A stretch of DNA of 64,000 nt from Gammaproteobacteria bacterium (GTDB lineage: Bacteria > Pseudomonadota > Gammaproteobacteria > Steroidobacterales > Woeseiaceae). A model generated the notes under the pieces. The model was not told the DNA's origin, did not search any database, and worked only from the letters and a program-made list of their open reading frames with translations. Of this stretch, positions 49,118 to 64,000 are shown piece after piece; positions within the stretch are counted from its first letter, which is position 1, and each line of letters opens with the position of its first letter. The stretch lies in assembly GCA_009937505.1 (NCBI GenBank), contig JAACFJ010000012.1, positions 1 to 64,000 of the forward strand, in the 5' to 3' direction. The position numbers were made by a program, and so were the translations under genes.

Positions 49118-50404
49118 TTGCTAAGAGCCCGCCAGAAAATCGGAAAATACCGGATCGTGGGACGTATCGCGTCCGGACCCCTCGCCGACGTCTACCGTGC
49201 CTATGACACGATCCAGAAGCGGCGCGTGGCGCTCAAGATACCCAAGGCAGACGCGCATACCGGGCACGACGAATTCCTGCACGAAGTCCAGGTTGCAACG
49301 AAGCTGCAGCACCCGAATATCTTGTCCGTTCTCAACGCGAGCTATATTGACGATAATTTCGTGATTGCCATGGAGCTCGGCGAAGAATCACTCGCCGACC
49401 GCATCGAGCGCCGCATATCGACGGCGCGCGCGCTGGACCTCACCGGCCAGGCAATTGCAGCGTTGGCCCACGCTCATGAACACAGGATCATCCATTGCGA
49501 TATCAAGCCGGAGAATTACATCCTGTTTCCGGGAAACCAGTTGAAGCTCTGCGACTTCGGGTTTGCAAAGATCAGCCTCCGTACATTGAAAGCGTCCGGC
49601 TCCGGCACCATCGATTACATTGCGCCTGAACAGGCCATGGGCCGGCCCAAATTCCAATCCGACGTGTTCTCACTCGGGCTGGTGCTTTACCGCCTGTTGT
49701 CGGGCAAGCTGCCGGAATGGCCGTTTGCCTGGCCGCTGGTCGGGCACGAGCGGTTGACCACGAAGGTACGCCCGGAGGTCGTCGAGATGCTCAGGAAAGC
49801 GATCCAGCTGGATCCGGCGAATCGCTATCGCGACGCGGTACAAATGATGTCCGCCTTCGAACAGTTGCAGAGCCATGCCCGGCGGCAGAAGCGCTCCAGG
49901 TCGCGCGGCGACCGCAAGCTCGGAACGACCTGGCGGCGCATGCAATGGCGCGAGTTTCAGCGGCAGTACAGGAAGGCTCTCGATACCCGGCATCAGTGCA
50001 GGCACTGCGAGGGGCCCGTGTCGGAGAGCATGCAGGCGTGTCCGTGGTGCGGCTTCGACAACCCGGCGCGGAGTTCGGAATCGTCCATGCCGTCGAGTTG
50101 CCCGCGCTGCGAACGCGGCGTCAAGAACGACTGGGATTACTGCCCGTGGTGCTACGGACCTGGCTTCGTCGAGGAAACGGCACGCCGCTACCCTGACAAG
50201 CGATACTCTGCCCGCTGCAATAACAAGCGCTGCCGCGGACAGCTGATGCCGTTCATGCGCTACTGCCCATGGTGCCGCATGAAGGTACGCAGGCCATGGA
50301 AACTGCAGGGCAGCCGGCATTGCTGCAAGGCCTGCGGCTGGGGTATCGCGCGGGAGTTCTGGAATTACTGCGCCTGGTGCAGGGAGCCCGTGAAGCGCGC
50401 GTAA
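49118..50404 (+). CDS. Ser/Thr protein kinase with four C-terminal zinc ribbons
   Basis: 428 residues from a TTG start. Kinase domain about 10-255: VALK lysine K40, catalytic loop HCDIKPEN (126-133, HCD instead of HRD), DFG 146-148, activation segment ending IAPEQ. The glycine loop is degenerate (IASGPLADVY). The tail (294-421) holds four CxxC...CPWC-type pairs: C294/C297-C308/C311, C328/C331-C342/C345, C367/C372-C383/C386 and C403/C406-C418/C421, each a zinc ribbon. No membrane helix, so cytoplasmic. It is followed after 20 bases by a PP2C phosphatase, which suggests a kinase/phosphatase switch for the downstream envelope proteins with FHA domains. The zinc ribbons may sense metal or redox state, or bind partner proteins. 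Confidence 0.85.
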   Translation: MLRARQKIGKYRIVGRIASGPLADVYRAYDTIQKRRVALKIPKADAHTGHDEFLHEVQVATKLQHPNILSVLNASYIDDNFVIAMELGEESLADRIERRISTARALDLTGQAIAALAHAHEHRIIHCDIKPENYILFPGNQLKLCDFGFAKISLRTLKASGSGTIDYIAPEQAMGRPKFQSDVFSLGLVLYRLLSGKLPEWPFAWPLVGHERLTTKVRPEVVEMLRKAIQLDPANRYRDAVQMMSAFEQLQSHARRQKRSRSRGDRKLGTTWRRMQWREFQRQYRKALDTRHQCRHCEGPVSESMQACPWCGFDNPARSSESSMPSSCPRCERGVKNDWDYCPWCYGPGFVEETARRYPDKRYSARCNNKRCRGQLMPFMRYCPWCRMKVRRPWKLQGSRHCCKACGWGIAREFWNYCAWCREPVKRA

Positions 50405-50424
50405 CGGCGCTTCAGGGTAACGTC

Positions 50425-51273
50425 GTGTCGAAAATTATAGACGGTCTGCTCGTGCTGGACGGCGCATTCCAGCCGGACAGCCAGGTCGCGCAAGTCGGTG
50501 GCGGTTCGGTGGTGGCTTTCACGGAGCGTGCGCCGGACAAGGACACGGAGAACGAGGACACGGTCGCCGTGATTCCCTGGGGGCCAGAGTCGGTCGTCCT
50601 GGTCGTTGCGGACGGTGCCGGAGGGCTGCCGGCGGGTAAACGAGCTTCGATGACGGCCGTGTCGTCGCTGGCCGAGGCGCTGTCGGTCGCCATGTCCGAA
50701 ACGGTGGTGCTGCGTACCGCGATTCTCGACGGCATAGAAGCGGCGAACGAGGCCGTCAAACGGCTTTCGAATGGTTCCGCGACGACACTGACCGTAGTCA
50801 CGATAGAAGGGCAGATAGCACGCGCTTACCAGATCGGCGATTCGGAAGCGCTGGTCGTCGGTCAGCGCGGCCGGGTCAAGCTGCAGACGACGGCGCATTC
50901 GCCCACGGGTTTTGCGGTCGAGGCGGGCTTTCTCGATGAACGCGAGGCACTCCACCATGCCGAGCGACACCTGGTTTCGAATTTTCTTGGCACCAGCGAT
51001 ATGAGTATCGATATCGGCGCACCCGCCAAACTTCGGCCCAGGGACACGGTTCTCCTGGCGAGCGACGGTTTGACAGACAACGTGCATCTCGACGAAATCA
51101 TCGAGCACATCCGCAAGGGACCGGCCGATGTCGCGGTGGATGCCGTCGTCGAACTCGCACGAAAGAGGATGCAGTCGAACAACGGCAAAGAGCCGTCGAA
51201 ACCCGACGATCTGTCCCTGATCGTTTACCGGAAACGTCCGGAAGCGCGGCGCAAATCCCCCGGCAAGCCGTAA
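50425..51273 (+). CDS. PP2C-family Ser/Thr phosphatase
   Basis: 282 residues. Metal-dependent phosphatase motifs are all there: DKDTENEDTVAV (first Asp region), VVADGAGGLPAGKRAS (DGxGG), GDSEALVV, LASDGLTDNV and the final DDLSLIVYRKR. It should reverse phosphorylation by the kinases of the cluster. GTG at 50425, with an AGGG element about 7 bases before it, is preferred over in-frame starts that lie inside the kinase gene. Cytoplasmic, no fused domain. Kinase plus PP2C next to vWA proteins recalls the TerY-P triads of tellurite-resistance-type clusters, although no Ter genes are present. Confidence 0.88.
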   Translation: MSKIIDGLLVLDGAFQPDSQVAQVGGGSVVAFTERAPDKDTENEDTVAVIPWGPESVVLVVADGAGGLPAGKRASMTAVSSLAEALSVAMSETVVLRTAILDGIEAANEAVKRLSNGSATTLTVVTIEGQIARAYQIGDSEALVVGQRGRVKLQTTAHSPTGFAVEAGFLDEREALHHAERHLVSNFLGTSDMSIDIGAPAKLRPRDTVLLASDGLTDNVHLDEIIEHIRKGPADVAVDAVVELARKRMQSNNGKEPSKPDDLSLIVYRKRPEARRKSPGKP

Positions 51274-51326: not shown

Positions 51327-51418
51327 GCCCTGCGCCAGATCCAAGCACCCGACAGGGCTATTGATTGACCAATGGCAGCGTATTATCGTCACAGGGTGCC
51401 GGCAAGACGTTTGCCGGC
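51327..51418 (+). other. Hairpin-rich leader between the phosphatase and the glycine-rich lipoprotein
   Basis: The 276-base gap 51274-51549 has no credible gene. It contains a GCCCTG (51327-51332)/CAGGGC (51353-51358) stem and a perfect 8-bp hairpin GCCGGCAA (51398-51405), loop GACGT, TTGCCGGC (51411-51418), followed by further GCCGG/CCGGG complementarity to about 51435. A T tract is absent, so this is not a classical terminator. It may act as a partial attenuator, an RNA-processing site that separates regulator and structural mRNA levels, or a leader element. Confidence 0.35.
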
Positions 51419-51549
51419 CCGGCGAGTGCCGGGATTCCGATGGAACTCAGGCATACGTTTGGTGCTCAAAACAAGGAATACCGGTCGTTCCGGGTCGTTA
51501 CGAAGTAACAGGCCGGGCCTCCACACTCGCCATCGAGAGGCACGAGCAA

Positions 51550-52755
51550 ATGAACCGCAACCAGTCAAGCAGATCGATTTCCGGCCTGGCCAAAACCGGC
51601 CTGGTTATCTTGGCCGCGACGCTTCTCGTCGCCGGCTGCAAATCGTCGGTTATCCAGCCGCCCAGTAGCGGTATTCCGCAACCACCGTCAGGTGGCGCGC
51701 CCCCGTCCGGAGGTGGCTCGCAAAGTGGCGAGCAGCAGGGCGGCGAACAGGGGGGTGGCCAGCAGGGTGGCGGCTCTTCCGGTGGTGGTGAACAGGGCGG
51801 TGGTGAACAGGGCGGTGGTTCCTCCGGTGGCGGTTCTCAAGGTGGCGGCTCTCAAGGTGGTGGCCAGCAGGGCGGCGGTGCCTCCGGTGGCGGTGCCTCC
51901 GGTGGTGGCGCCTCACCGAGCGGCAGTTCGTCCGGCGGCGGCGCCGGCCAGTCCGGCGGAGTCGGCAGCGTGCCACAGATCGAACTTCCGATGCCGGGTG
52001 GCGTACCGGGCATGAGCGGCGGCGCAGGCGATGAGGGTACCGAGGGCGACGGTGGTGAAGCTGGTGACGGCGATGGCGACGGCCAGAGCAGTAGTGACTG
52101 CGGTGACACCGGTCCGCTACCTGGTGGCGTAGGCGGCATGGGTCAGGCAGGTGAATGCCTGGGTGGTGGCGCATCTGCGAGCGACTCCGCCGAGTCGGCC
52201 GGAGGCGGTGCTGAAGCCGCGATGGAAGGCGGTGGCGGTGGCGGTGGCGGTCAAGACGCCGAGGGTGGCGCTGCTGGTGGCGCTGCAGGCGGAACCGGAA
52301 CGGGAGGTGCAGGCAGCGCCGGTCAGTTCCCCGCCGAATCGGACGCGGAGCGTGCCGAGCGACTCGGACGCGAACTCGACGAGTCGGTCGGCGGTTTCGA
52401 CGAGGTTTTGAGCGAAGAACAGCGCGAGGTCGCTTCCGTTGGCCGCAACATGGAAGGATTTGGCGGCAACGGTAGTTCCGGTGGCGGGGACGGCGGCATC
52501 AGCCTGGGCGAGCAGGCGGGTGGCGGCTCGGGCGCCGGATCGGTGACCGTGGCGAACCAGCCGCAGGCGCAGCGCGAATCGCCGGTCGCCGGGCTCAGTC
52601 AGGAGGAGGTTCGCGAACGGACGCCAGACGATATTCCGATGATGGTTGATGATGACATCATCGCGCGGCAGCTTCGTGAGGCGGCCCTCGCTGAGGAAGA
52701 TCCGGAACTGCGCGAACGGCTTTGGGAAGAGTACCGGAAGTACAACGGGATTTAA
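51550..52755 (+). CDS. Glycine-rich low-complexity lipoprotein
   Basis: 401 residues. A basic N-region and hydrophobic segment end in the lipobox LLVAGC at about residues 25-30. Residues about 40-270 are almost only Gly, Ser, Gln, Ala and Glu in short tandem units (GGGSSGGGEQ, GGGSQ, GGGASG). After that come an acidic stretch with two Cys (SSSDCGDTG, AGECLGG), another Gly-rich block, and a charged C-terminal helix (QLREAALAEEDPELRERLWEEYRKY). It is probably an outer- or inner-membrane-anchored flexible extender or matrix. No family recognised. The C-terminal helix is the only part likely to be conserved. It lies 9 bases before the next lipoprotein gene. Confidence 0.75.
   Translation: MNRNQSSRSISGLAKTGLVILAATLLVAGCKSSVIQPPSSGIPQPPSGGAPPSGGGSQSGEQQGGEQGGGQQGGGSSGGGEQGGGEQGGGSSGGGSQGGGSQGGGQQGGGASGGGASGGGASPSGSSSGGGAGQSGGVGSVPQIELPMPGGVPGMSGGAGDEGTEGDGGEAGDGDGDGQSSSDCGDTGPLPGGVGGMGQAGECLGGGASASDSAESAGGGAEAAMEGGGGGGGGQDAEGGAAGGAAGGTGTGGAGSAGQFPAESDAERAERLGRELDESVGGFDEVLSEEQREVASVGRNMEGFGGNGSSGGGDGGISLGEQAGGGSGAGSVTVANQPQAQRESPVAGLSQEEVRERTPDDIPMMVDDDIIARQLREAALAEEDPELRERLWEEYRKYNGI
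51718..51912 (+). repeat. Tandem GGTGGCGG-type DNA repeats encoding Gly-rich units
   Basis: Short degenerate tandem units of 15-18 bases follow each other within the glycine-rich gene, for example GGTGGTGAACAGGGC twice and GGTGGCGGCTCTCAA-like units twice. They are in frame with the protein and differ mainly at third positions. Such a tract can expand or contract by slippage in multiples of three, so length variation between strains is expected. Confidence 0.7.
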
Positions 52756-52764
52756 GGAGACGGT

Positions 52765-54006
52765 TTGCAAAACATGAGGAAACTATCGCCGCTTATCGCT
52801 ATGGCCCTGTTCGCGGTTCAGGGCTGCACCGTCAACGAAGTCATTACTGCCGAAGAATCCGAGCTCGTCGTCGCGGATGAGACTGTCGACGAATCTCTGC
52901 TTCTCGATATCGGCATCGTCGAGTTCGAAGACGGGGTGCCCGAAAACAACGACTCTGCGGATACGCGAGTTTACGAAGAAATACGAGGCGCCGAGGCACG
53001 ATACCTGCCATACCACCTGAAGACGACACTGCAGGGGACCGGTCACTGGGGCGCGGTGCGGGTGATACCGTCGCGCGAAGCATTCACGGACGTCATCATC
53101 AGCGGCCGCATCGAGAAATCGGACGGCGAGTACGTGAAGCTCGAGATATCCGTTGACGACGCGAGTGGCCGGCACTGGTACTCGGAGAAATACAGCGCAC
53201 AGACGGGCGTCTCATCGTATTCCGAGAGGCGCGACCGGCGCGAGGATCCGTACCAGAAAGTCTTCAACGACATTGCAAACGATTTGCAGGCGTTTGTTGC
53301 CGGGATGCCGCCCCAGGAGGTCAAGCGGGTCCGCCAGGTTTCCGAATTGCAGTTCTTCGGCGACATGTCGCCGGCACAATTCGGCGAACACCTTGCGACT
53401 GACGAGGACGACATCGTGCAGGTAATGCGCCTGCCTGCGGAAAACGACCCGGCGGTGGCTCGCCTGCGGCAAATCCGCGAGCGCGACCGGCTCGTCGTCG
53501 ACACGCTTAACGAGCACTACGCCAACTTCTATTACGGTATTGCGATCCCCTATAGCGCGTGGCGCAAGACATCACGCGAGGAGGCTATCAACTACCGCCA
53601 GGTGAAGCGTTCAGCAACGCTGCAGACGCTGATGGGCGTCGTCGTCCTCGCCGGTTCCCTTGCAGTCGATACGAATAGCTCCAGTTCGTCGACGCGCCGC
53701 ATGCAGCGAAGCCTGCAGAGCATCGGCATCTCGCAGGGCATAGACCAGATATTTGCGGGCTTTTCACGGCGTTCCGAGGCAACGCTTCACGTCGAAGCGA
53801 TCAAGGAACTGTCGGAGTCGTTCGGCTCGGAGGCTGCGCCCATGGTGATCGACGTCGAGGGCCAGACGCGCCGCCTTACCGGGACGGCTGCAGCCCAGTA
53901 TGAAAGCTGGCGCCGTTTGCTTCGTGAAATCTACGAGGCGGAAACCGGGTTCCCGACGCCGATCGAAGTCGGTTCACCTGCTCGCGAGGCTGAACCGACT
54001 GGATGA
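52765..54006 (+). CDS. Lipoprotein of unknown function in the kinase/vWA cluster
   Basis: 413 residues. AAGGAG (52754-52759) lies 5 bases before TTG at 52765 and 14 before an in-frame ATG at 52774, so the TTG start is chosen. The lipobox is AVQGC at residues 17-21. The N-terminal half (about 45-175) looks like a domain that begins LLLDIGIVEFEDGVPEN and contains VRVIPSREAFTDVIISGRIEKSDGEY, similar in style to periplasmic GNA1162/CsgG-like domains (a strand-helix domain building outer-membrane-associated rings). The middle has a long helical segment, and about residues 285-301 are hydrophobic (TLMGVVVLAGSLAV). I cannot name the family. Its stop overlaps the second kinase by ATGA. Confidence 0.72.
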   Translation: MQNMRKLSPLIAMALFAVQGCTVNEVITAEESELVVADETVDESLLLDIGIVEFEDGVPENNDSADTRVYEEIRGAEARYLPYHLKTTLQGTGHWGAVRVIPSREAFTDVIISGRIEKSDGEYVKLEISVDDASGRHWYSEKYSAQTGVSSYSERRDRREDPYQKVFNDIANDLQAFVAGMPPQEVKRVRQVSELQFFGDMSPAQFGEHLATDEDDIVQVMRLPAENDPAVARLRQIRERDRLVVDTLNEHYANFYYGIAIPYSAWRKTSREEAINYRQVKRSATLQTLMGVVVLAGSLAVDTNSSSSSTRRMQRSLQSIGISQGIDQIFAGFSRRSEATLHVEAIKELSESFGSEAAPMVIDVEGQTRRLTGTAAAQYESWRRLLREIYEAETGFPTPIEVGSPAREAEPTG

Positions 54007-56378
54007 GCGATCGAAAACCGACGCGAGACCTGAGCGAAGGGGTCCGGCTCGCTAATCGGTATACCTTAGCCCGGCGATTAGGCAGAGGGGGCGCGGCCGA
54101 GACCTGGCTCGCGACGGACCGGATCACCCGCGCGTCGGTCGCGCTCAAGATCCTCGTGGACGATCGCATCGATGACGATGCATTGCGACGCGAGTGGCAA
54201 CTCGCGATTCGCCTGATGCACGCACATATCGTGCGCGCGTTCGAATTCCACGAGGACGACGGGGCTTTCTACAGCCTGCAGTACATCGACGGACCGGATA
54301 TTGGCGTGCTCGCCGGCGCGTCTCCGGCAGAATCGCTGCCGCCGGTCGCGCTGGTCGCGGATGCCCTGCGATATGCACATGCAAAAGGCGTCGTACACCG
54401 AGACGTCAAAGCCTCGAACATCCTTCTCGATCACAACGGTGCGCCGTACCTGATCGACTTCGGCATTGCGGCGACTCCCGGCCAGGATCCGGGCGGCGGT
54501 TCGCTGATTGCCGCCAGTCCTCAGCAACTCTCGGGCGACGCGCCTGATCCGACCGACGACATTTTCGCGCTCGGTGGTGTGATCCATGAACTGGTGAGCG
54601 GTCGTTCGCCCTGGAGATCAGAGGATACGGCGGGCGACATTCTCCACAGAGAACCGCCACCGCTCGAGGCGGCAGACGGCTCGGCAGTGTCCGCCGGTCT
54701 TCAGGAGTTGGTCGCCCGAATGCTGGACAAGGACGCATCGCGCAGGCCGGACGCGGAGTCCGTTGCCGGCCGTCTGGCGGAGCTGGGTTATGCTCCTGCA
54801 CCCGCCGCGAAGCGCTTCGTCGCCGCGACGGGGGGTGCGCACGACGAGATTATCCGGACGCAGGAAGCCGTCCGCCCGGTCAGTCGCGAACCGCACCCTG
54901 CTGCTGCGGCGAGTAGCACGACATCCAGCGGCATGAGCCCGCGGACCCTCGGCATCAGTTTTGCCGCATTGCTGGTCTTGCTGCTTGGCGTCGTATTCCT
55001 GTTGCCAAGGGCGGTCGAAAAACCTGCAGCCGTGCCGGCGGCGGACACGACAGCACAGGATGAAGGGCCGCAGGCGGAGACAGGAGTCGAAAAGAAGCCC
55101 AGCGTCGAGTTTAACGAGAACCTCGACGACCTCAGCGGCCGCGATCAGCGCGTCCAGGACCGGGCATCTACCGAGGAGGTACTCGGGGAGTTACTGGCCA
55201 AGATGGATACGCTGGAAAGCCGTGCCGTGCAGCGTTGGGGCGGGTTGCGATTTGCCCGGGCGCAGGCGGTCTACGCCGAGGGCGACGAGGCCTACCTGGC
55301 GCGGGACTATGCCGCTGCATCGCAGAAATACCGTGAGGCCATCGAAATCGTCGAACCGCTGCTGGATGAAGTCGACAAGGTGTTCGAATCGACCTATGCG
55401 GAGGCTCGCGCGGCTCTGGAGGCTGCCGATCCCGTGGAGGCCCTGCGCCTTTTCGATCTCGCCGCAGCGATCAGTCCGGGACACCGGGGCGCGCAGCAGG
55501 GACTGGCGCGGGCACGAAATCTCGAAACCGTCCTTTCATTGATGGACCAGGGCCTCGCGCATGAAAAGGACCTCGCGCTGCAGGCAGCCCGGCAAAGCTT
55601 CGAACAAGCCGTCGAGCTCGACCCGGCATGGGAGCCCGCGCAGCTTGCGCTGGACCGAGTACGCGGCACGATCCGGCAAATGGAGTTCGACATGCGCATG
55701 ACGGAGGGCCTGACCGCACTGGCCGATGGCGATTTCCTGGCGGCTCGCGCGGCATTTCGCATGGCGGAGAAGCTTAAGCCCGGGTCACCCGAGCCGGCTG
55801 ACGGCGTGTTGCAGGTAGACCAGGGTATCCGGTTGCAGGAGATCACGTCGCTGGAGCAAAAGGCCCTGCAGTACGAGCAGGCGGAAGAATGGAGTGACGC
55901 GACCGAGACCTACGGGCGTATCCTCGAGCTGGATTCCAACCTGGCGTTTGCGCAGGACGGCATCGTCCGGACGCGGCAGATGGAAGCCCTGTTCGAGATG
56001 CTCGACGGGTTCATCGAGGAACCCGATAGCCTGAGCCGGCAGTCGAAAATGCAGTCCGCCACCAAGCTGCTCCTCGACATCACACGCATGGAAGAAATCG
56101 GCCCACGCCTCGCGGATCGGCGCGACGAGCTGTCGAGACTGCTGAAGCGGGCGGCAACGCCGCTCACAGTCAGGCTCGTTTCCGACAACCAGACCGACGT
56201 TTCGATCTACAAAGTTGGTAAACTCGGCAGCTTCGACCAGCATGAACTCAATCTGCGGCCAGGCACCTACGTTGCGGTCGGCGTACGCCCCGGATACCGC
56301 GACGTACGCCTGGAGTTTCGCGTGGGACCGGAAATTGACATGCAGCCCATTGTCGTTCGCTGCGAGGAACCAATTTGA
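54003..56378 (+). CDS. Transmembrane Ser/Thr kinase with extracytoplasmic TPR-like repeats
   Basis: 791 residues. Kinase domain about 18-265: K49 in VALKIL, HRDVKASN (132-139), DFG 152-154. The activation-loop APE is replaced by ASPQQLSG, as in several bacterial kinases. A single membrane helix (about 314-336) leads to an extracytoplasmic part of about 450 residues with TPR-like helical repeats (ARAQAVYAEGDEAYLARDYAAASQKYREAIE and later copies, to about 640) and a C-terminal PEGA-like beta domain (LTVRLVSDNQTDVSIYKVG...LRPGTYVAVGVRPGY). This looks like a receptor kinase whose outer part senses or scaffolds envelope components. It overlaps its neighbours on both sides by 4 bases. Confidence 0.87.
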   Translation: MSDRKPTRDLSEGVRLANRYTLARRLGRGGAAETWLATDRITRASVALKILVDDRIDDDALRREWQLAIRLMHAHIVRAFEFHEDDGAFYSLQYIDGPDIGVLAGASPAESLPPVALVADALRYAHAKGVVHRDVKASNILLDHNGAPYLIDFGIAATPGQDPGGGSLIAASPQQLSGDAPDPTDDIFALGGVIHELVSGRSPWRSEDTAGDILHREPPPLEAADGSAVSAGLQELVARMLDKDASRRPDAESVAGRLAELGYAPAPAAKRFVAATGGAHDEIIRTQEAVRPVSREPHPAAAASSTTSSGMSPRTLGISFAALLVLLLGVVFLLPRAVEKPAAVPAADTTAQDEGPQAETGVEKKPSVEFNENLDDLSGRDQRVQDRASTEEVLGELLAKMDTLESRAVQRWGGLRFARAQAVYAEGDEAYLARDYAAASQKYREAIEIVEPLLDEVDKVFESTYAEARAALEAADPVEALRLFDLAAAISPGHRGAQQGLARARNLETVLSLMDQGLAHEKDLALQAARQSFEQAVELDPAWEPAQLALDRVRGTIRQMEFDMRMTEGLTALADGDFLAARAAFRMAEKLKPGSPEPADGVLQVDQGIRLQEITSLEQKALQYEQAEEWSDATETYGRILELDSNLAFAQDGIVRTRQMEALFEMLDGFIEEPDSLSRQSKMQSATKLLLDITRMEEIGPRLADRRDELSRLLKRAATPLTVRLVSDNQTDVSIYKVGKLGSFDQHELNLRPGTYVAVGVRPGYRDVRLEFRVGPEIDMQPIVVRCEEPI

Positions 56379-58801
56379 GTCTGAACCTTTTCATCAGGGA
56401 TGTTGAAGGCGAACGACGAATAGAGGCGGAGCGTTTGCCGCTGCGCGTCGGTACCGGCAGCGACTGCGACCTCCGTCTGCCAGGCCCCGGCGGCGGGCCG
56501 GTCATGATGCTCGATGTGCTCGACGACGTGCCTTTCGTGCAGCCCGTCGGTCGTGACGCGTCGATGGCGATTAACGGCGAATCGCTCCTTGCCAGCCGAC
56601 GTTTGCAGGACGGCGACGAGCTGCGCTACTTCGGCAGCCGCATCGTCGTCCATCTCGGCGAGGCGCGCCTGACGCTGGAAGTCCGGCTCGAGGACAGCGC
56701 CTATGTGACGAAGCCGCCCGAACTCGGCGATGCCGGCGAACAGCCGGCCGAGGAGACCATCGCGCCGACGGCTTTCCGGCGCGCTGCGGAGACACCCCAG
56801 GCGCCAGGGGACAGCGCGGGCCACGGCACTCTGCGCTGGATCATTGGTATTGCCCTGACGGTACTGGTGCTCGCGTCTTATCTGTTGTTCACGGCGAAGT
56901 CGGTCAAGTTCGAGGTTACGCCGGGCGAGCCCGATTCGTTCTCGGTCAGCGGTGGCTGGTTCCGCATGCCGCTTGGCGATCGCGTGCTGTTGCGCAAGGG
57001 CAGTTACACGGTGCAGGTGTCGCAGCAGGGGTATTTCGACGTTAGTCAGAACTTCGAAGTGGGAGACGAGCAGAACGTCATTATCGACATCGAGATGCGC
57101 AAGCTGCCAGGGCACGTGACGGTCGTCACGAATCCCCCGACGGAAGCAGTTGTCGGGATCAACGAGAGCGAGATCGGGCCGGCACCGTTCGGACCGATCG
57201 AGTTGTTGCCCGGGGAGCACAGCGTCAACGTGCGCGCCGAGCGGTTTCTCCCATACACGGGCGTTATCAGCGTCCCGGGACTCGGCAGGCACGAACAGCT
57301 CAGCGTGCAGCTCGTGCCGCGCTGGGCGGACATCGAGATCAGCTCGGAACCGCCGGGTGCAAGCATATTTGCGGGCGAACATCAGGTTGGCGAGACCCCG
57401 GCGACCATCGAACTGATGGAGGGCACACACCAGATCAGCGTCGTGCGGGACGGCTACAGCGCCTGGGACGGCACGGTGGTCGCGGAGCCGAACACCGACA
57501 CGGCGCTGCCGCTGATCCGGCTGCAGCCGGCGAACGCCAGGCTGCTCGTCAACTCTATTCCGCGCGGCGCCAACGTCACCGTGAACGGCCGTTACCGCGG
57601 GCAGTCACCGATATCGCTCGATCTCGCGCCGGACGTCAACTACGAGATCGGACTGTCGAAGGCCGGTTACGGCATGACGAGCCGTAAAGTTCGGCTCGAA
57701 GCGGCGGCCAGCGACTCGATCACGGTCGATCTTACGGCCAGGACCGGCACCCTGACCGTCAACGTTCAGCCTGCCGACGCCACGGTCTACGTGGATGGTC
57801 AGGCACGCGGAACGGGCAATGCGACGTTACGTCTGAGTTCGGCCCCGCACCGCATCGAGGTGCGCAAGGCCGGCTACGAATCCTGGTCGCGAACTGTAAC
57901 GCCGCGGCCGGGCTATCCGCAGACGCTGTCGGCTCGCCTGCGTTCGCTTGAAGAGATAGAGCGTGCGTCGGTTGCGCTCGAGCGCAAGACGGCTGCCGGC
58001 CAGGTATTGCGCCTGGTCGAGCCCGGCACCTTCACCCTGGGCTCGTCGCGCAGCGAGCAGGGCCGGCGGGCAAACGAAGTCATTGTGCCTGTCAAGCTGA
58101 CGAAACCGTTTCTGATCGGCGTGAAGGAAGTGACCAACCGGGAGTTTGCGCAGTTCCGGGAGAATCACGATTCCGGCGCCGATATCCACCCGTCGATGGC
58201 CGGCGACAACAACCCCGTGGCCAACGTGACCTGGGCGGATGCCGTACAGTACTGCAACTGGCTCAGCGCACGCGAAGGCCTGACGCCGGTTTACAAGGAG
58301 GAGTTCGGCGAGTGGGTTGCCATACGGCCGTTCCCGGATGGGTACCGCCTGCCGACCGAGGCGGAGTGGGTGTGGGCTATTCGTTACCAGGGCGGCAACG
58401 GCGCACTGAAATTTTCCTGGGGCAGGGAATGGCCGCCCCGGCGCGACGCGGGCAACTATGCCGACAAGTCCGCGGCCGATCTCGTGCCCACGATCATTCC
58501 CGGCTATGACGACGGCTTCGCATCGACCGCGGAAGGCGGCAAGTTTCCAGCGAACGCCATAGGGGTTTTCGACGGCGCCGGAAACCTGGCCGAATGGGTG
58601 AATGATTTCTACACGGTACCGGCCCCCGGCGTTACCTCACCGCTGGTCGACCCCCTGGGCCCCGAGCGCGGACAGTCCTACGTGATCAGGGGTTCCGGCT
58701 GGCGGCATGCATCGACGACCGAACTGCGACTGTCCTACCGGGATTACGGCAATGAACCGAGGTCGGACGTCGGTTTCCGCGTAGCGCGAAATGCCGACTG
58801 A
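56375..58801 (+). CDS. FHA-like/PEGA/SUMF1-like transmembrane protein
   Basis: 808 residues from a TTG that overlaps the upstream stop (TTGA). Order: a cytoplasmic FHA-like beta domain (1-110, LPLRVGTGSDCDLRLPG), a membrane helix (about 153-173), at least four PEGA-type repeats (about 175-520; GxxVTVVTNPP..AVVGINE, ISSEPPGASIFAGEHQVGETP, VNSIPRGANVTVNGRYRGQSP, VNVQPADATVYVDGQARGTG) and a C-terminal formylglycine-enzyme/SUMF1-like domain (about 540-805; GVKEVTNREFAQF, YRLPTEAEWVWA, GNLAEWVNDFY, VIRGSGWRHA...GFRVAR). The cysteines needed for FGE catalysis are absent, so the domain is probably structural or ligand-binding, as in GldJ/GldK of the Bacteroidetes gliding machinery. It likely links cytoplasmic phospho-signals to an outer scaffold. 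Confidence 0.86.
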   Translation: MSLNLFIRDVEGERRIEAERLPLRVGTGSDCDLRLPGPGGGPVMMLDVLDDVPFVQPVGRDASMAINGESLLASRRLQDGDELRYFGSRIVVHLGEARLTLEVRLEDSAYVTKPPELGDAGEQPAEETIAPTAFRRAAETPQAPGDSAGHGTLRWIIGIALTVLVLASYLLFTAKSVKFEVTPGEPDSFSVSGGWFRMPLGDRVLLRKGSYTVQVSQQGYFDVSQNFEVGDEQNVIIDIEMRKLPGHVTVVTNPPTEAVVGINESEIGPAPFGPIELLPGEHSVNVRAERFLPYTGVISVPGLGRHEQLSVQLVPRWADIEISSEPPGASIFAGEHQVGETPATIELMEGTHQISVVRDGYSAWDGTVVAEPNTDTALPLIRLQPANARLLVNSIPRGANVTVNGRYRGQSPISLDLAPDVNYEIGLSKAGYGMTSRKVRLEAAASDSITVDLTARTGTLTVNVQPADATVYVDGQARGTGNATLRLSSAPHRIEVRKAGYESWSRTVTPRPGYPQTLSARLRSLEEIERASVALERKTAAGQVLRLVEPGTFTLGSSRSEQGRRANEVIVPVKLTKPFLIGVKEVTNREFAQFRENHDSGADIHPSMAGDNNPVANVTWADAVQYCNWLSAREGLTPVYKEEFGEWVAIRPFPDGYRLPTEAEWVWAIRYQGGNGALKFSWGREWPPRRDAGNYADKSAADLVPTIIPGYDDGFASTAEGGKFPANAIGVFDGAGNLAEWVNDFYTVPAPGVTSPLVDPLGPERGQSYVIRGSGWRHASTTELRLSYRDYGNEPRSDVGFRVARNAD

Positions 58802-58860: not shown

Positions 58861-59109
58861 ATGATGCATCGTTATTTATTGACCGTTTTATTGCTGCTCG
58901 CGGGCGCGGGCACCTGGGCCCAGGAGAGTGCCCCGGCCGACGAGGCCGATGCGCCGGATGCGCAGGACACGGCGGAAGAAGCGCCCGATGAACAGGAAGA
59001 CGATCTCGACCTCGATGAAGAAAGCTACCGGGATGCCGAGGAAGAGGATTTCGTGCCGACCGAGGACATACCGGCCGACCAGGCGATCCCTTTCCCGACC
59101 GACATCTAA
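58861..59109 (+). CDS. Small acidic exported protein (82 aa)
   Basis: Signal peptide about 1-20 (HRYLLTVLLLLAGAGTWA, cleavage before QES), then a mature chain of about 62 residues with more than twenty Asp/Glu and no aromatic core except near the end (EDFVPTEDIPADQAIPFPTDI). It is disordered by appearance and probably a charged periplasmic spacer, cation binder or ligand. It stands between the PEGA/SUMF1-like gene and the channel gene and is presumably part of the same assembly. No family recognised. A second ATG follows immediately and could also be used. Confidence 0.65.
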   Translation: MMHRYLLTVLLLLAGAGTWAQESAPADEADAPDAQDTAEEAPDEQEDDLDLDEESYRDAEEEDFVPTEDIPADQAIPFPTDI

Positions 59110-59144: not shown

Positions 59145-59945
59145 ATGAACAAGAAAAACATTCCTGTTGAGTTCGTATTCCAGATGTTTGCACTGATCAT
59201 CGCGATCATTGTCGTGCACGCGTTCTACGTGTCCGTTGTGCGGCCGAACGCGGCGCAAATCATCGAGGAACAAAACGCTGCGGCCGCCGCCGACCCCAAC
59301 TACGTCCGCGAGCGCCGCGTCGCCGTGCTGATCAAGGACCTCGAACAGGAAGCCTGTTTCATCCTCATGATCTGGGCGCTCGCGATCATGGGGTACAAGG
59401 CAGTCAGTATCACGCGCGAGCGCCGCCTGCTCGACGTCGACCTCGTTCCGGTCGCGGAAGGGATGCGAATATTGCCCGAGGATACCCGCGAATTCGCCCG
59501 CCAGGTGCAGCAGCTGCCCAACGAGCAGCAACAGATGCTGCTGCCACGCGCCCTGCTGAACGCGCTCCGGCGATTCAATTCGACGCACAATATTCAGGAC
59601 GTCTCCAGTAGCACGAACACCATCTGCGAGTCCGAGGCTGAGCGGCTGGAATCGGAGCTGTCGATGATCCGCTACATCTCCTGGGCGATTCCCTCGATTG
59701 GATTTATCGGCACCGTGCGCGGTATCGGTGAGGCGCTCGCGCAGGCGGACAAAGCGGTTCAGGGCGACATCGCGGGTGTTACCCAGAGCCTGGGCGTCGC
59801 GTTCAACTCGACCTTCATCGCGCTCCTGATCAGCATATTCCTGATGTTCCTGGTGTATCAGCTGCAGCTCTTGCAGGAGCGCCTCGTGTTCGATGCGCAG
59901 GCGTACTGTGACGACAAGCTGATCCGCCACATGAGAGCGGACTGA
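59145..59945 (+). CDS. MotA/TolQ/ExbB-type channel protein
   Basis: 266 residues. Four hydrophobic segments: about 10-32, 70-88, 177-197 and 209-241. The conserved core of the MotA/TolQ/ExbB family is clear in the last two, AIPSIGFIGTVRGIGEALAQADKAV and GVTQSLGVAFNSTFIALLISIF, the latter with the Thr/Ser that lines the ion path. The N-terminal pair is separated by about 37 extracytoplasmic residues, and a cytoplasmic domain (about 90-175) lies before the core. In known systems five such subunits surround two copies of a TolR/ExbD/MotB partner and turn ion flow into rotation. The two vWA proteins 1.4-2.5 kb downstream are the evident partners here. Confidence 0.88.
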   Translation: MNKKNIPVEFVFQMFALIIAIIVVHAFYVSVVRPNAAQIIEEQNAAAAADPNYVRERRVAVLIKDLEQEACFILMIWALAIMGYKAVSITRERRLLDVDLVPVAEGMRILPEDTREFARQVQQLPNEQQQMLLPRALLNALRRFNSTHNIQDVSSSTNTICESEAERLESELSMIRYISWAIPSIGFIGTVRGIGEALAQADKAVQGDIAGVTQSLGVAFNSTFIALLISIFLMFLVYQLQLLQERLVFDAQAYCDDKLIRHMRAD

Positions 59946-59964: not shown

Positions 59965-61329
59965 ATGTCCCTGCTTGCAGCCCATATCAATGATGCCGGG
60001 ATCTCGGTACTCAGTGCCGAGCGCATGCTTTACCGGGAACCCGGTTTCGCACTTCTCGACGACGAGCTGACAACGGGCTCGAAGGCGTTCGAAAACGCCC
60101 GCATAAAACCGCGGAGGATCCAGAATCGATTTTGGTTGGAGCTGACGACAAACGCACTGCCCGACCGCCGATTCCAGCACCTGAGTGCCGCGGATCTCGT
60201 CAGCCGGCAGCTCGAACAAATCTGGCATGGCGCTGCGGCCTCCGGCGACCGGCTGGTCGTCGCCGTGCCGGCCTATATGACGGGCGAGAATCTCGGCCTG
60301 TTTCTCGGCATTGCAAGCGAACTCGACGTCCCGATCGTCGGCCTGGTCGACGCTGCCGTCGCGGCGACGCGTCGCGAATACCAGGGGGCAGTTCCCGCGC
60401 ACGTGGATTTGGGTCTGCACGTCACGACCCTGTCGCGTCTGAAGCAGAATGGCCAGGTACAGCTCGACCGCAGCGAGGTAATCGAAAACAGCGGAATGCT
60501 GGCGCTGTACGAAGCCTGGATACGGGTGATCTCCGACGCATTTGTGAAGCAGTCGAGATTCGACCCGCTGCATACCGCAGAAACCGAGCAGCTGTTGCTC
60601 GACCGGCTTGGCGAGTGGCTGGCAAGCGCGTCGGCCAATGCGAAAGTGGCGCTCGAAATCGAGTACCGGGGTATCGTGCACAGTGCCGAACTCGAATCCC
60701 TGCACCTGATATCAGCGGCGGCGCCTGTTTACCAGCGCATCGCAAGCCAGCTTAGAGCCATTTTCCGGGCCGAGGAAACGCCTGCAATTCAACTTAGCGA
60801 TCGCGCCGCACGTATGCCGGGCCTTGCCGACATGCTCGCCGCGCGCGTCGGTGGCGAAATATTCCTGCTCGAGCCCGGCGCCACGGCGCGTGGACTCTTG
60901 ACCCGCTGCCGGGACATGCAGCGCGGCGATGGCGGCGTGACGCTGATCAGGCAGCTGCCATGGGACCAGACGCCGGTGACGATCGCGCAAGACGAAACGC
61001 CCGTCGCGGCCGGGCAGCCGACGCACCTGCTTTTCGAAAATACGGCCTATCCGATCGATGCCCGTGCACTACTGATGGGCTCGCAGCCCGCGGCCGGCGA
61101 GCGCTGGATCGACCTGAGAGGCGAAATGCCGGGCGTATCCCGGCGGCACTGCTCCATCGAACGCAAGAACGGCCAATGCATCGTGCAGGACTACAGTCGC
61201 TACGGCACGTTTCTCAATGGCCACAAGATCGACGGCTCAGCCGTCCTCCAGGTAGGGGACCTCATTCGCCTGGGCAGCCCCGGCTACGAATTTCGGCTGA
61301 TCATGACGGAGCCTGACGATGGCTCGTAA
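59965..61329 (+). CDS. Actin/Hsp70-like fold protein with C-terminal FHA domain
   Basis: 454 residues, no signal peptide. Residues 1-340 have the layout of a degenerate Hsp70/actin-type ATPase: an N-terminal strand pair (LAAHINDAGISVLSAE), LVVAVPAYMTGENLGLFLGIASELDVPIVGLVDAAVAA (the pattern of the Hsp70 crossing helix), then HVDLGLHVTTLSRLKQNG in place of the usual DLGGGTFDvS phosphate loop. The Gly-rich phosphate loop is weakened, so ATP hydrolysis is doubtful. The C-terminal FHA domain (about 362-447) has VSRRHCSI (S392, H395) and YGTFLNG (N418), while the Arg normally next to Gly at the start of the motif is replaced (MGSQ). It probably reads phosphothreonine made by the cluster's kinases. 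It overlaps the next gene by 11 bases. Confidence 0.72.
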   Translation: MSLLAAHINDAGISVLSAERMLYREPGFALLDDELTTGSKAFENARIKPRRIQNRFWLELTTNALPDRRFQHLSAADLVSRQLEQIWHGAAASGDRLVVAVPAYMTGENLGLFLGIASELDVPIVGLVDAAVAATRREYQGAVPAHVDLGLHVTTLSRLKQNGQVQLDRSEVIENSGMLALYEAWIRVISDAFVKQSRFDPLHTAETEQLLLDRLGEWLASASANAKVALEIEYRGIVHSAELESLHLISAAAPVYQRIASQLRAIFRAEETPAIQLSDRAARMPGLADMLAARVGGEIFLLEPGATARGLLTRCRDMQRGDGGVTLIRQLPWDQTPVTIAQDETPVAAGQPTHLLFENTAYPIDARALLMGSQPAAGERWIDLRGEMPGVSRRHCSIERKNGQCIVQDYSRYGTFLNGHKIDGSAVLQVGDLIRLGSPGYEFRLIMTEPDDGS

Positions 61330-62416
61330 GCGCCGGCAATTCGAGGTCTTCAGCATGTCGTTTCTCGACTGCATGAGTTGCGGTTTCGGTGCCGTGATCC
61401 TGTTCTTCATGATCATCAATGCGCAGGTGAAGGAGTCCACGGAAGAGGATCCGACCGAGCTGATGGCCGAGACGAAGCGCCTGGAGGTCGAGATACTCGA
61501 AGGTCGCAAGGATCTCGTGCTTGCGAAGAATACGACCGAGACACTGGAGGAAGAGAAACAGACCGCCGAGGGCAAGATCGCCGAGATCATCGCCCTGATA
61601 AAGGAATTGCGTGAGGAACTCGCCGAGTACGACGACGAAACACTCGCCAAAATCGAGCGTATCGAGAAGCTGCAGAGCGATATCAAATCACTCGAGGAAG
61701 AAGTGAAGCGCCTGCTGGCGCTGAAGGCCGAAGAGGAAAACCAGGGCGCGAGGATTCGGGAATTCAAGGGCGAAGGCGACCGCCAGTACCTGACGGGGCT
61801 CAAGCTGGGCGGCGACCGCACACTGATACTCGTCGATCGTTCGGCGAGCATGCTGGACGACACGATCGTCAATATCATCCGCCGTCGCAACATGGCGGAA
61901 GCGGACAAACTGCGCGCCGTCAAGTGGCGCCAGGTCGTGGCCAGCGTCGACTGGCTCACGTCGCAGTTCAAGCCGGGCAGCAAGTTCCAGATCTACATGT
62001 TCAACAACGAGGTCCAGCCGGTGATCAAGGGCAGTGGCGGCACCTGGCTCGAAGCGGACGATGCGACCAAGCTGGACGAGGCCATACGGGTGCTGCGGCG
62101 CACGCCGCCCGAGAACGGTACCAATTTACGTGCCGCCTACGAGATCGCGGCCGAGCTTACGCCGCGGCCCGACAATATCATCCTGCTGGTCGATGGTTTG
62201 CCGACGATGATGGAGTCCACCACTAACCGCAGGATGGTCACCGGCCGCGATCGCATGAGTATGCACGGCCGCTCGGTCCGTGAACTGCCCAGCGGCATAC
62301 CGGTCAATATATTATTGTTCCCGATGGAGGGCGACTACGATGCCGCCATCGCGTACTGGACACTGGCATACGGCAGCGGCGGGTCATTCATGGCCGTCAG
62401 CCGGGACTGGCCGTAG
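61319..62416 (+). CDS. TolR/ExbD-like membrane protein with vWA domain, paralogue 1
   Basis: 365 residues. After a basic N-terminus (ARKRRQ) comes FSMSFLDCMSCGFGAVILFF, a single membrane helix that starts with Asp17 in S-F-L-D, the position of the ion-carrying Asp in TolR/ExbD/MotB. A long charged coiled coil (about 40-140) leads to a vWA domain (about 160-365) with a full MIDAS: LVDRSASM (DxSxS), NGTNLRAAY (Thr) and LLVDGLPT (Asp). Topology by charge is N-in, so the vWA part is extracytoplasmic. It should be one half of the B-type subunit pair in the channel complex with the MotA/ExbB-like protein. Start inside the previous gene implies translational coupling. Confidence 0.87.
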   Translation: MARKRRQFEVFSMSFLDCMSCGFGAVILFFMIINAQVKESTEEDPTELMAETKRLEVEILEGRKDLVLAKNTTETLEEEKQTAEGKIAEIIALIKELREELAEYDDETLAKIERIEKLQSDIKSLEEEVKRLLALKAEEENQGARIREFKGEGDRQYLTGLKLGGDRTLILVDRSASMLDDTIVNIIRRRNMAEADKLRAVKWRQVVASVDWLTSQFKPGSKFQIYMFNNEVQPVIKGSGGTWLEADDATKLDEAIRVLRRTPPENGTNLRAAYEIAAELTPRPDNIILLVDGLPTMMESTTNRRMVTGRDRMSMHGRSVRELPSGIPVNILLFPMEGDYDAAIAYWTLAYGSGGSFMAVSRDWP

Positions 62417-62431
62417 CACGTTGGAGCACGC

Positions 62432-63430
62432 ATGAGTAAACGACGTCGCAACGTAGATGCATTCAGTCTCTCGTTCCTCGACTGCATTTGCTGCGGGTTC
62501 GGCGCGATTATCCTGTTGCTCGTGTTGTCGAAGATTTACGAGCCGATGATCATCGAGAAGACCCAGGACGACCTGGAGTCCCTGATCGCGTTGCTGCAGC
62601 AGGAACTCTTCGATATCCGCGGCGAGGCGGCAATACTGAATCGCGAACTCACGGACGTGCGCGAGCAGACCTCCGACACCAAGATCCAGCTCGCCCGCCT
62701 GCAGCAGGAACTCAGCACGGTAAAGGGTCAGTACGAAGCGTCGCAGGAAGAATCGGATTCGACGATCGACGAGGGTGCACTGGCCTCGGCGAAACAGCGC
62801 CTCACCGCGGAGATGCGCCGCCTGCAGCCGTATTACAAGCGTGCCAATGACGATGCGGTTGCGGGCATCCCCGTCGACAGCGAATACATCATCTTCATTA
62901 TCGACACGTCCGGAAGCATGCAGCAGTACAACTGGGACAGGGTGCAACAAAAACTGGACGAGACGCTGGACGTCTATCCGCAGGTCAAGGGCCTGCAGAT
63001 CATGAACGACAACGGCAACTACATGTTTTCGCAGTATGCGGGCAAGTGGATTCCCGACACGCCCGGCCGCCGCGAAGCGATCAAGAACACGATGCGCCTG
63101 TGGCGCCCGTTCAGCGACAGTAACCCGGTTGACGGCATCATCTACGCGATCAGTACCTACTGGTCGCCGGACAAGAAGATCAGCATCTACGTTTTTGGCG
63201 ACGAGTTCAGCGGCCGTTCGGTCGAGAATGTGGTTCGGCAGGTCGACACGGTCAATCGCGCGGACGCCGAAGGCAACAGGATGGTACGGATACACGCGGT
63301 CGGCTTTCCGTTCCTGTTCCGTGGCGGCGGCAATATCCCGCCGACTGCCCATAAGTTCTCACAGCTCATGCGTGTGCTGTGCGAACGCAACGGCGGTACT
63401 TTCGTCGCCCTGACTCATTGGGACCGCTGA
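62432..63430 (+). CDS. TolR/ExbD-like membrane protein with vWA domain, paralogue 2
   Basis: 332 residues, the same plan as its neighbour: basic start (SKRRRN), FSLSFLDCICCGFGAIILLL with Asp17 in the same place, a Gln/Glu-rich coiled coil (about 45-130) and a vWA domain (about 148-332). MIDAS motif 1 is intact (IIDTSGSM) and the late Asp is present (YVFGDEFSG), but the middle Thr motif reads SNPVDGIIYAI, so metal binding may be altered. The coiled coils of the two paralogues differ in composition, which would favour pairing of one with the other. Last gene of the cluster, starting 16 bases after paralogue 1 with GGAGCACGC upstream. Confidence 0.87.
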   Translation: MSKRRRNVDAFSLSFLDCICCGFGAIILLLVLSKIYEPMIIEKTQDDLESLIALLQQELFDIRGEAAILNRELTDVREQTSDTKIQLARLQQELSTVKGQYEASQEESDSTIDEGALASAKQRLTAEMRRLQPYYKRANDDAVAGIPVDSEYIIFIIDTSGSMQQYNWDRVQQKLDETLDVYPQVKGLQIMNDNGNYMFSQYAGKWIPDTPGRREAIKNTMRLWRPFSDSNPVDGIIYAISTYWSPDKKISIYVFGDEFSGRSVENVVRQVDTVNRADAEGNRMVRIHAVGFPFLFRGGGNIPPTAHKFSQLMRVLCERNGGTFVALTHWDR

Positions 63431-63564: not shown

Positions 63565-64000
63565 ATGCGTAAGACGATTACAGCAATCACGGCTCTGGCC
63601 CTCATCACCGTGCCGCCGCTGGCTGCGCAGGCGGCCGCGTCCAAAAAGGAAACTATCGGCGTCGGCGCCGGCGCGATCGTCGGGGCAGCCGCCGGCGGCC
63701 CGGTTGGGCTTATCGTTGGTGCAGCGGTAGGTGCATACCTCGGCGATAACATTCACCAGAAGGACGGCGAAATCCAGACGCTTACGGTGGAGCTCGCGGC
63801 CTCCAGGTCCGAGGTTGTGGGGCTGGAAGGCGATATCGGCAGGATGGACCGCGATATAGATACGCTGAGCGCCGAACTGCAGCGTATGCAGCGTTACTCG
63901 AGCCAGGAGATGATCAGCTTGCTGGAGGCGGGCATCGTCATGGAGCTGCTTTTTCGAACGGACGAGGCGGTGCTTGCCGATAGCACCGGAAGTCGACTGC
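63565..64000 (+). CDS. Glycine-zipper/OmpA-family protein, PdsO-like (3' partial)
   Basis: The first 145 residues are inside the window. Signal peptide 1-24 (cleavage near AQAAA), a glycine-zipper hydrophobic pair (IGVGAGAIVGAAAGGPVGLIVGAAVGAYLGD in pieces), a coiled coil (about 68-112), then MELLFRTDEAVL, which looks like the first strand of an OmpA peptidoglycan-binding domain. The order glycine zipper, coiled coil, OmpA matches PdsO, the OmpA-like protein of proteobacterial dedicated sortase systems. A strong GGAGGAG lies 6 bases before ATG at 63565. A GGCCAC/GTGGCC hairpin around 63525-63540 precedes it, so it may be a separate transcript from the vWA cluster. Confidence 0.65.
   Translation, partial: MRKTITAITALALITVPPLAAQAAASKKETIGVGAGAIVGAAAGGPVGLIVGAAVGAYLGDNIHQKDGEIQTLTVELAASRSEVVGLEGDIGRMDRDIDTLSAELQRMQRYSSQEMISLLEAGIVMELLFRTDEAVLADSTGSRL

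Follow-up and report, generated by a model that had tools for sequence, protein, structure and literature searches.

TMH-tethered vWA genes tightly co-occur with tolQ homologues in Proteobacteria, with no tolR or exbD, according to the available text of Williams-Jones et al. (Mol Biol Evol, June 2025, PMC12204202). As described there, these vWA genes mostly form heterologous pairs and the transpore helix of their products bears a conserved Asp; in AlphaFold 3 models a TolQ-like pentamer encloses these helices, the Asp is ringed by Thr, and the predicted stoichiometry is 5:2. In TolQR, the Thr pair T145/T178 forms a polar ring that hydrogen-bonds Asp23 of TolR (PMC12583513). Neither of two further overviews of this motor family, one of 2022 and one of 2025, refers to vWA.

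The locus described here lies in a stretch of 64,000 nucleotides, called the window below, from a metagenome-assembled genome of a member of the Woeseiaceae. Its genes are the following:

49118-51273, + strand: second Ser/Thr kinase with a zinc-ribbon tail (49118-50404) and PP2C-like phosphatase (50269-51273); probable regulatory neighbours
51361-52755, + strand: Gly/Ser-rich lipoprotein (sequence, relatives); in 32 of 33 loci
52765-54006, + strand: second lipoprotein of the core set, without a Pfam family; in 32 of 33 loci
54003-56378, + strand: Ser/Thr kinase - TM - TPR protein (PF00069, 103.9 bits; TPR)
56375-58801, + strand: PEGA(x5)-FGE/SUMF1-like protein, membrane-anchored, with a putative cytoplasmic FHA-like head (PF08308, PF03781)
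58861-59109, + strand: small secreted acidic protein, poorly conserved (ORF; orthologues within the family)
59145-59945, + strand: MotA/TolQ/ExbB-like A subunit, 266 aa (PF01618, TolQ alignment, conservation)
59965-61329, + strand: accessory cytoplasmic protein with a C-terminal FHA domain (PF00498, 49.9 bits)
61319-62416, + strand: vWA-A, 365 aa (ORF list, profile search, fold model, residue conservation)
62432-63430, + strand: vWA-B, 332 aa (ORF list, fold model and Foldseek, residue conservation)

The ORF list contains both vWA frames on the + strand, at the coordinates that the original prediction had given. The pair had also been placed behind a single A gene: there is indeed one A gene with the vWA pair downstream, but the FHA-domain gene intervenes. 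In many Woeseiaceae loci vWA-B is followed by a PdsO-like OmpA protein, seen here at 63565-63999 and partial at the window end. Another contig of the same genome encodes a marine proteobacterial sortase (215 bits; G000:C106:23668-24186, L089).

The TolQ-like gene and the vWA N-termini

The product of 59145-59945 has four hydrophobic segments and scores 54.4 bits against PF01618, for which the curated cutoff is 22.9. In a search of solved structures, the A-subunit profile aligns without gaps to E. coli TolQ over TM2-TM3, but weakly (E about 0.05); in this weak alignment T190 falls on T145 and T223 on T178. Both threonines are invariant (83/83 sequences). The vWA pair had been predicted to have a MotA/TolQ-like partner, and the PF01618 score together with the matching Thr pair supports it.

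As first noticed, both vWA proteins carry SFLDC at residues 14-18 and, ahead of a hydrophobic stretch, G22-F23-G24: each has a basic start, SFLDC, CGFG at 21-24 and a single hydrophobic helix. In vWA-A, a basic cytoplasmic N-terminus leads into a transpore-like helix at about 13-36, which holds Asp17, and then into a coiled coil at about 45-144. vWA-B is laid out in the same way, with Asp17 and a coiled coil predicted at about 38-134. The coiled coil is predicted in both proteins over ~100 residues between the helix and the vWA domain; in single-chain models, helix and coiled coil are of low confidence (pLDDT about 35-70).

Invariance of Asp17 among homologues had been set beforehand as a check. 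The residue proved invariant among the vWA-A and vWA-B sequences compared first, 58 distinct ones of either protein. With the set widened by samples from the class and the phylum, it still shows no exception among 91 distinct sequences of vWA-A and 90 of vWA-B, which puts its conservation far beyond chance. In family f55, of a different class in the same phylum, CGFG is replaced by SGLG or SAFA and the Asp is retained. Layout and invariant Asp17 together support the TolR/ExbD/MotB-like topology with an intramembrane Asp that had been proposed for the pair.

The N-termini of the vWA proteins have no match to ExbD/TolR (PF02472) or to any Pfam ExbD/MotB family even at E up to 1, and the whole proteins have none to PF02472 at E 0.1. 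Topology, the Asp and the partner gene are therefore the grounds for homology with TolR/ExbD. The vWA proteins would so act like TolR, yet lie outside the ExbD family by sequence.

No gene for TolR, ExbD or MotB was found in the vWA operon (ORFs and Pfam), and the other operons, where read completely, have no TolR/ExbD gene either; several ExbD/TolR proteins are encoded elsewhere in the same genome. The latter could serve a system in which the vWA proteins are TolA/TonB-like force transducers, their helix docking outside the pentamer while a separate ExbD/TolR dimer occupies the pore. A different vWA family with a like layout, found beside tolQ and two tolR genes, offers a precedent in the available text of PMC12204202. 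We nevertheless consider such an arrangement quite improbable here: the locus and the other fully read operons lack the TolR/ExbD gene that it calls for, and what is invariant is not the His of an SHLS motif but an Asp, placed towards the cytoplasmic end of the helix as it is in axle subunits. It is also very unlikely that the helix is the ordinary anchor of a BatA/BatB-like periplasmic vWA protein, its Asp serving, for example, helix packing and the motor gene being linked by regulation only. BatB does rank among the top fold matches of the vWA domains; against this stand the Asp within the helix and the Thr pair encoded by the adjacent channel gene, both invariant, and the obligate linkage.

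Invariant Asp17, a TolQ-type Thr pair and the lack of TolR/ExbD nearby therefore make a 5:2-type motor with vWA axles the best reading. On this evidence, vWA-A and vWA-B very probably serve as the axle (B) subunits in an ion-driven inner-membrane motor of the 5:2 type.

The vWA heads and their pairing

A C-terminal vWA domain, predicted for both proteins, is recognised in vWA-A by PF13519 (31.8 bits, cutoff 27) and in vWA-B, which scores under the Pfam cutoffs for vWA, by its predicted fold: it matches solved vWA domains, e.g. BatB 3ibs, with a Foldseek E of 2e-7. Solved vWA domains, BatB among them, are the best fold matches of both heads, and the vWA fold is confident in the single-chain models (block pLDDT mostly about 80-94). 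A sequence search of the PDB with the vWA profiles gave only chance matches to coiled coils.

The vWA domain of vWA-A (about 165-365) has the MIDAS residues D173/S175/S177, T268 and D292. They are well conserved: D173 in 90/91 sequences, S175 and S177 in 91/91, T268 in 86/90 and D292 in 90/90. In vWA-B (domain about 150-327), the DxSxS residues D158, S160 and S162 and the distal D257 are invariant (90/90), and the position of the MIDAS Thr is held by Ser228-x-Ser230 (91/91 each). The full MIDAS foreseen for vWA-A is thus present; that vWA-B 'lacks the Thr motif' was too strong a statement, as an invariant S228-x-S230 stands in its place. With DxSxS, D257 and SxS all invariant, a degenerate MIDAS in vWA-B is therefore not shown. 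Speculatively, the vWA tip might serve as a gripping or adhesion head, and the two heads might have separate tasks.

Every locus read contains one A form and one B form. In nearly all of them, including those of other families and another class, the two are adjacent and lie beside a single motor gene; in genome G047, the genes are split over two contigs. Such near-constant 1:1 adjacency beside one A gene favours a mixed axle, without being proof of it, and from the gene arrangement a 1:1 heterodimer of vWA-A and vWA-B appears plausible. Asp17 and the first MIDAS Asp mostly lie 155-158 residues apart in A, against 141-144 in B. Considered as a sign of pairing, stalk lengths of A and B show no correlation across loci (Spearman 0.07); coiled-coil pairing in register therefore gains no extra support.

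The clear differences between A and B, in vWA sequence as well as in Asp-to-MIDAS span, would also suit two homodimeric motors, A5(vWA-A)2 and A5(vWA-B)2, which use a common A subunit for different jobs. We find this rather unlikely, given that the genes are near-always adjacent and 1:1 beside a single A gene: from independent motors, loss of one would be expected in some lineages. Moreover, one-A-two-B systems of the AglR/AglQ/AglS type possibly pair within one motor (PMC9389320, PMC9120999).

The operon core and its kinase-FHA module

The vWA system was matched in 56 of 60 relatives, in 29 of 369 genomes of the class and in 15 of 399 genomes of the phylum sample, own genome counted; the class and phylum figures show it to be patchy outside its own order. 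The search for plasmid copies of the system gave no match. Genomes G056 and G043 each contain, in addition to the usual system, a diverged duplicate of all of it (L065 and L085, respectively) that has neither kinase nor FHA. The window's own genome has two more clusters with one A and two B genes, L003 (C159) and L005 (C12), in which an ExbB-like gene precedes two ExbD-like ones; the first ExbD-like protein has Asn at the position of the ion-carrying Asp (FMNLM/FLNLM), the second has Asp.

Seven genes form the core of the operon: those for the Gly/Ser-rich lipoprotein, the second lipoprotein, the TPR protein, the PEGA-FGE protein, the motor subunit, vWA-A and vWA-B. Of 33 loci drawn from family, order, class and phylum, 30 have all seven. 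The Gly/Ser-rich lipoprotein (51361-52755) has no Pfam or NCBIfam family match and a low-complexity body; its conserved C-terminus, DDDIIARQLREAA..DPELR..LW.EYRKY, recurs in distant relatives.

The PEGA-FGE protein scores 81 bits against GldK TIGR03525, below the cutoff of 350. Having only two Cys overall, one of them in the FHA-like head, it lacks a catalytic Cys pair, and catalytic formylglycine generation was rejected on this ground. The cytoplasmic head is FHA-like by our reading of the sequence; Pfam makes no call there.

In the protein encoded at 54003-56378, the TPR part belongs to the core and the N-terminal Ser/Thr kinase domain, active-looking in the window, is a variable module. The FHA protein keeps SRxH, the phosphothreonine-binding motif, in 9 of 12 genomes with the kinase in the locus and in 0 of 20 without it, kinship being ignored in this count. 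Where the kinase is absent, the FHA gene is absent too or has lost SRxH, and the PEGA-FGE protein often lacks its FHA-like head. L143 and L144 are kinase-bearing loci without SRxH; L139 and L140 may contain a diverged kinase. We read kinase and FHA as a detachable regulatory module over a motor-envelope core, which suggests control of the motor by phosphorylation in some lineages.

An anti-phage motor of the Zorya kind was considered as well, since ZorA has the same MotA/ExbB fold and matches weakly (15.1 bits in PADLOC, 13.2 bits in NCBIfam). We rejected this role as extremely improbable: beyond the weakness of the ZorA matches, the operon lacks Zorya effectors, with neither the OmpA-like domain of ZorB nor ZorC/D/E, and it is a conserved chromosomal operon across the whole order, with envelope lipoproteins.

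Proposed machine and comparison with known systems

We now propose how a motor with vWA axles may work. A pentamer of the TolQ/MotA-like protein (59145-59945) would encircle two axle helices, and Asp17 of each axle would take up a proton passing the T190/T223 ring. Proton uptake would make pentamer and axle turn or step against each other, and the coiled coil would relay this motion across the periplasm to the two vWA heads. Each motor would most likely pair one vWA-A with one vWA-B. What the heads bind may lie in the periplasm or the outer membrane, the likeliest candidates being the operon's two lipoproteins or the PEGA/FGE protein; the cytoplasmic Ser/Thr kinase and FHA proteins probably switch the motor in this genus. 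Five-to-two assembly, proton coupling, binding partners and phospho-control are what we infer from architecture, invariant residues, gene linkage and the absence of other B subunits, all read from sequence.

In its most specific form, the proposal is somewhat less likely than not: an obligate A5-B1-B'1 axle with two different metal-binding heads would form a trans-envelope motor that grips outer-membrane lipoproteins, and in some lineages kinase and FHA would switch it from the cytoplasm, coming and going as one module.

If the motor reading is right, many Gammaproteobacteria have an uncharacterised proton-powered envelope machine, with protein-binding heads at the end of its axle in place of a cell-wall anchor. 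The conserved core amounts to a short list of candidate partners. The system would also be a clean one for asking whether two different axle subunits can share a motor, a question that AglRQS raises too.

Compared with E. coli TolQR, T145/T178 correspond to T190/T223 and TolR D23 to D17. However, TolR is a homodimer, and its periplasmic domain is short, with peptidoglycan as its proposed ligand; in place of that domain the proteins described here have a coiled coil and a vWA domain. AglRQS, the gliding motor of Myxococcus, likewise has two distinct B paralogues for a single A subunit; its accessory genes differ. To our knowledge, the periplasmic parts of AglQ and AglS are not vWA. GldKLM of type IX secretion and gliding is another 5:2 motor whose operon encodes an FGE-like protein (GldK), but the periplasmic domains of GldM differ, and the FGE protein of the window also has PEGA repeats and a membrane anchor. 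BatA and BatB are a membrane-anchored vWA pair too, BatB being a close fold match; unlike the window's locus, they come without a motor gene. The BatA/BatB operon carries a MoxR ATPase.

The window's vWA pair evidently belongs to the same family as the TPH-vWA proteins of PMC12204202, which include Idiomarina members, by the features described in the available text. Shared features are an N-terminal Asp helix followed by vWA, here in both proteins, a tolQ-like neighbour, the lack of tolR/exbD in the locus and a heterologous vWA gene pair. The Thr residues of the pentamer, known as residues only, are present here as T190/T223. Unlike in that description, the locus has genes for Ser/Thr kinase, FHA, PEGA/FGE and lipoproteins, which the available text does not mention; nor does that text name the window's lineage. 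As PMC12204202 appeared in June 2025, the concept of a vWA-tipped axle is not new; what we add to it are the conservation counts, the correction of the MIDAS, the core operon and its linked kinase-FHA module.
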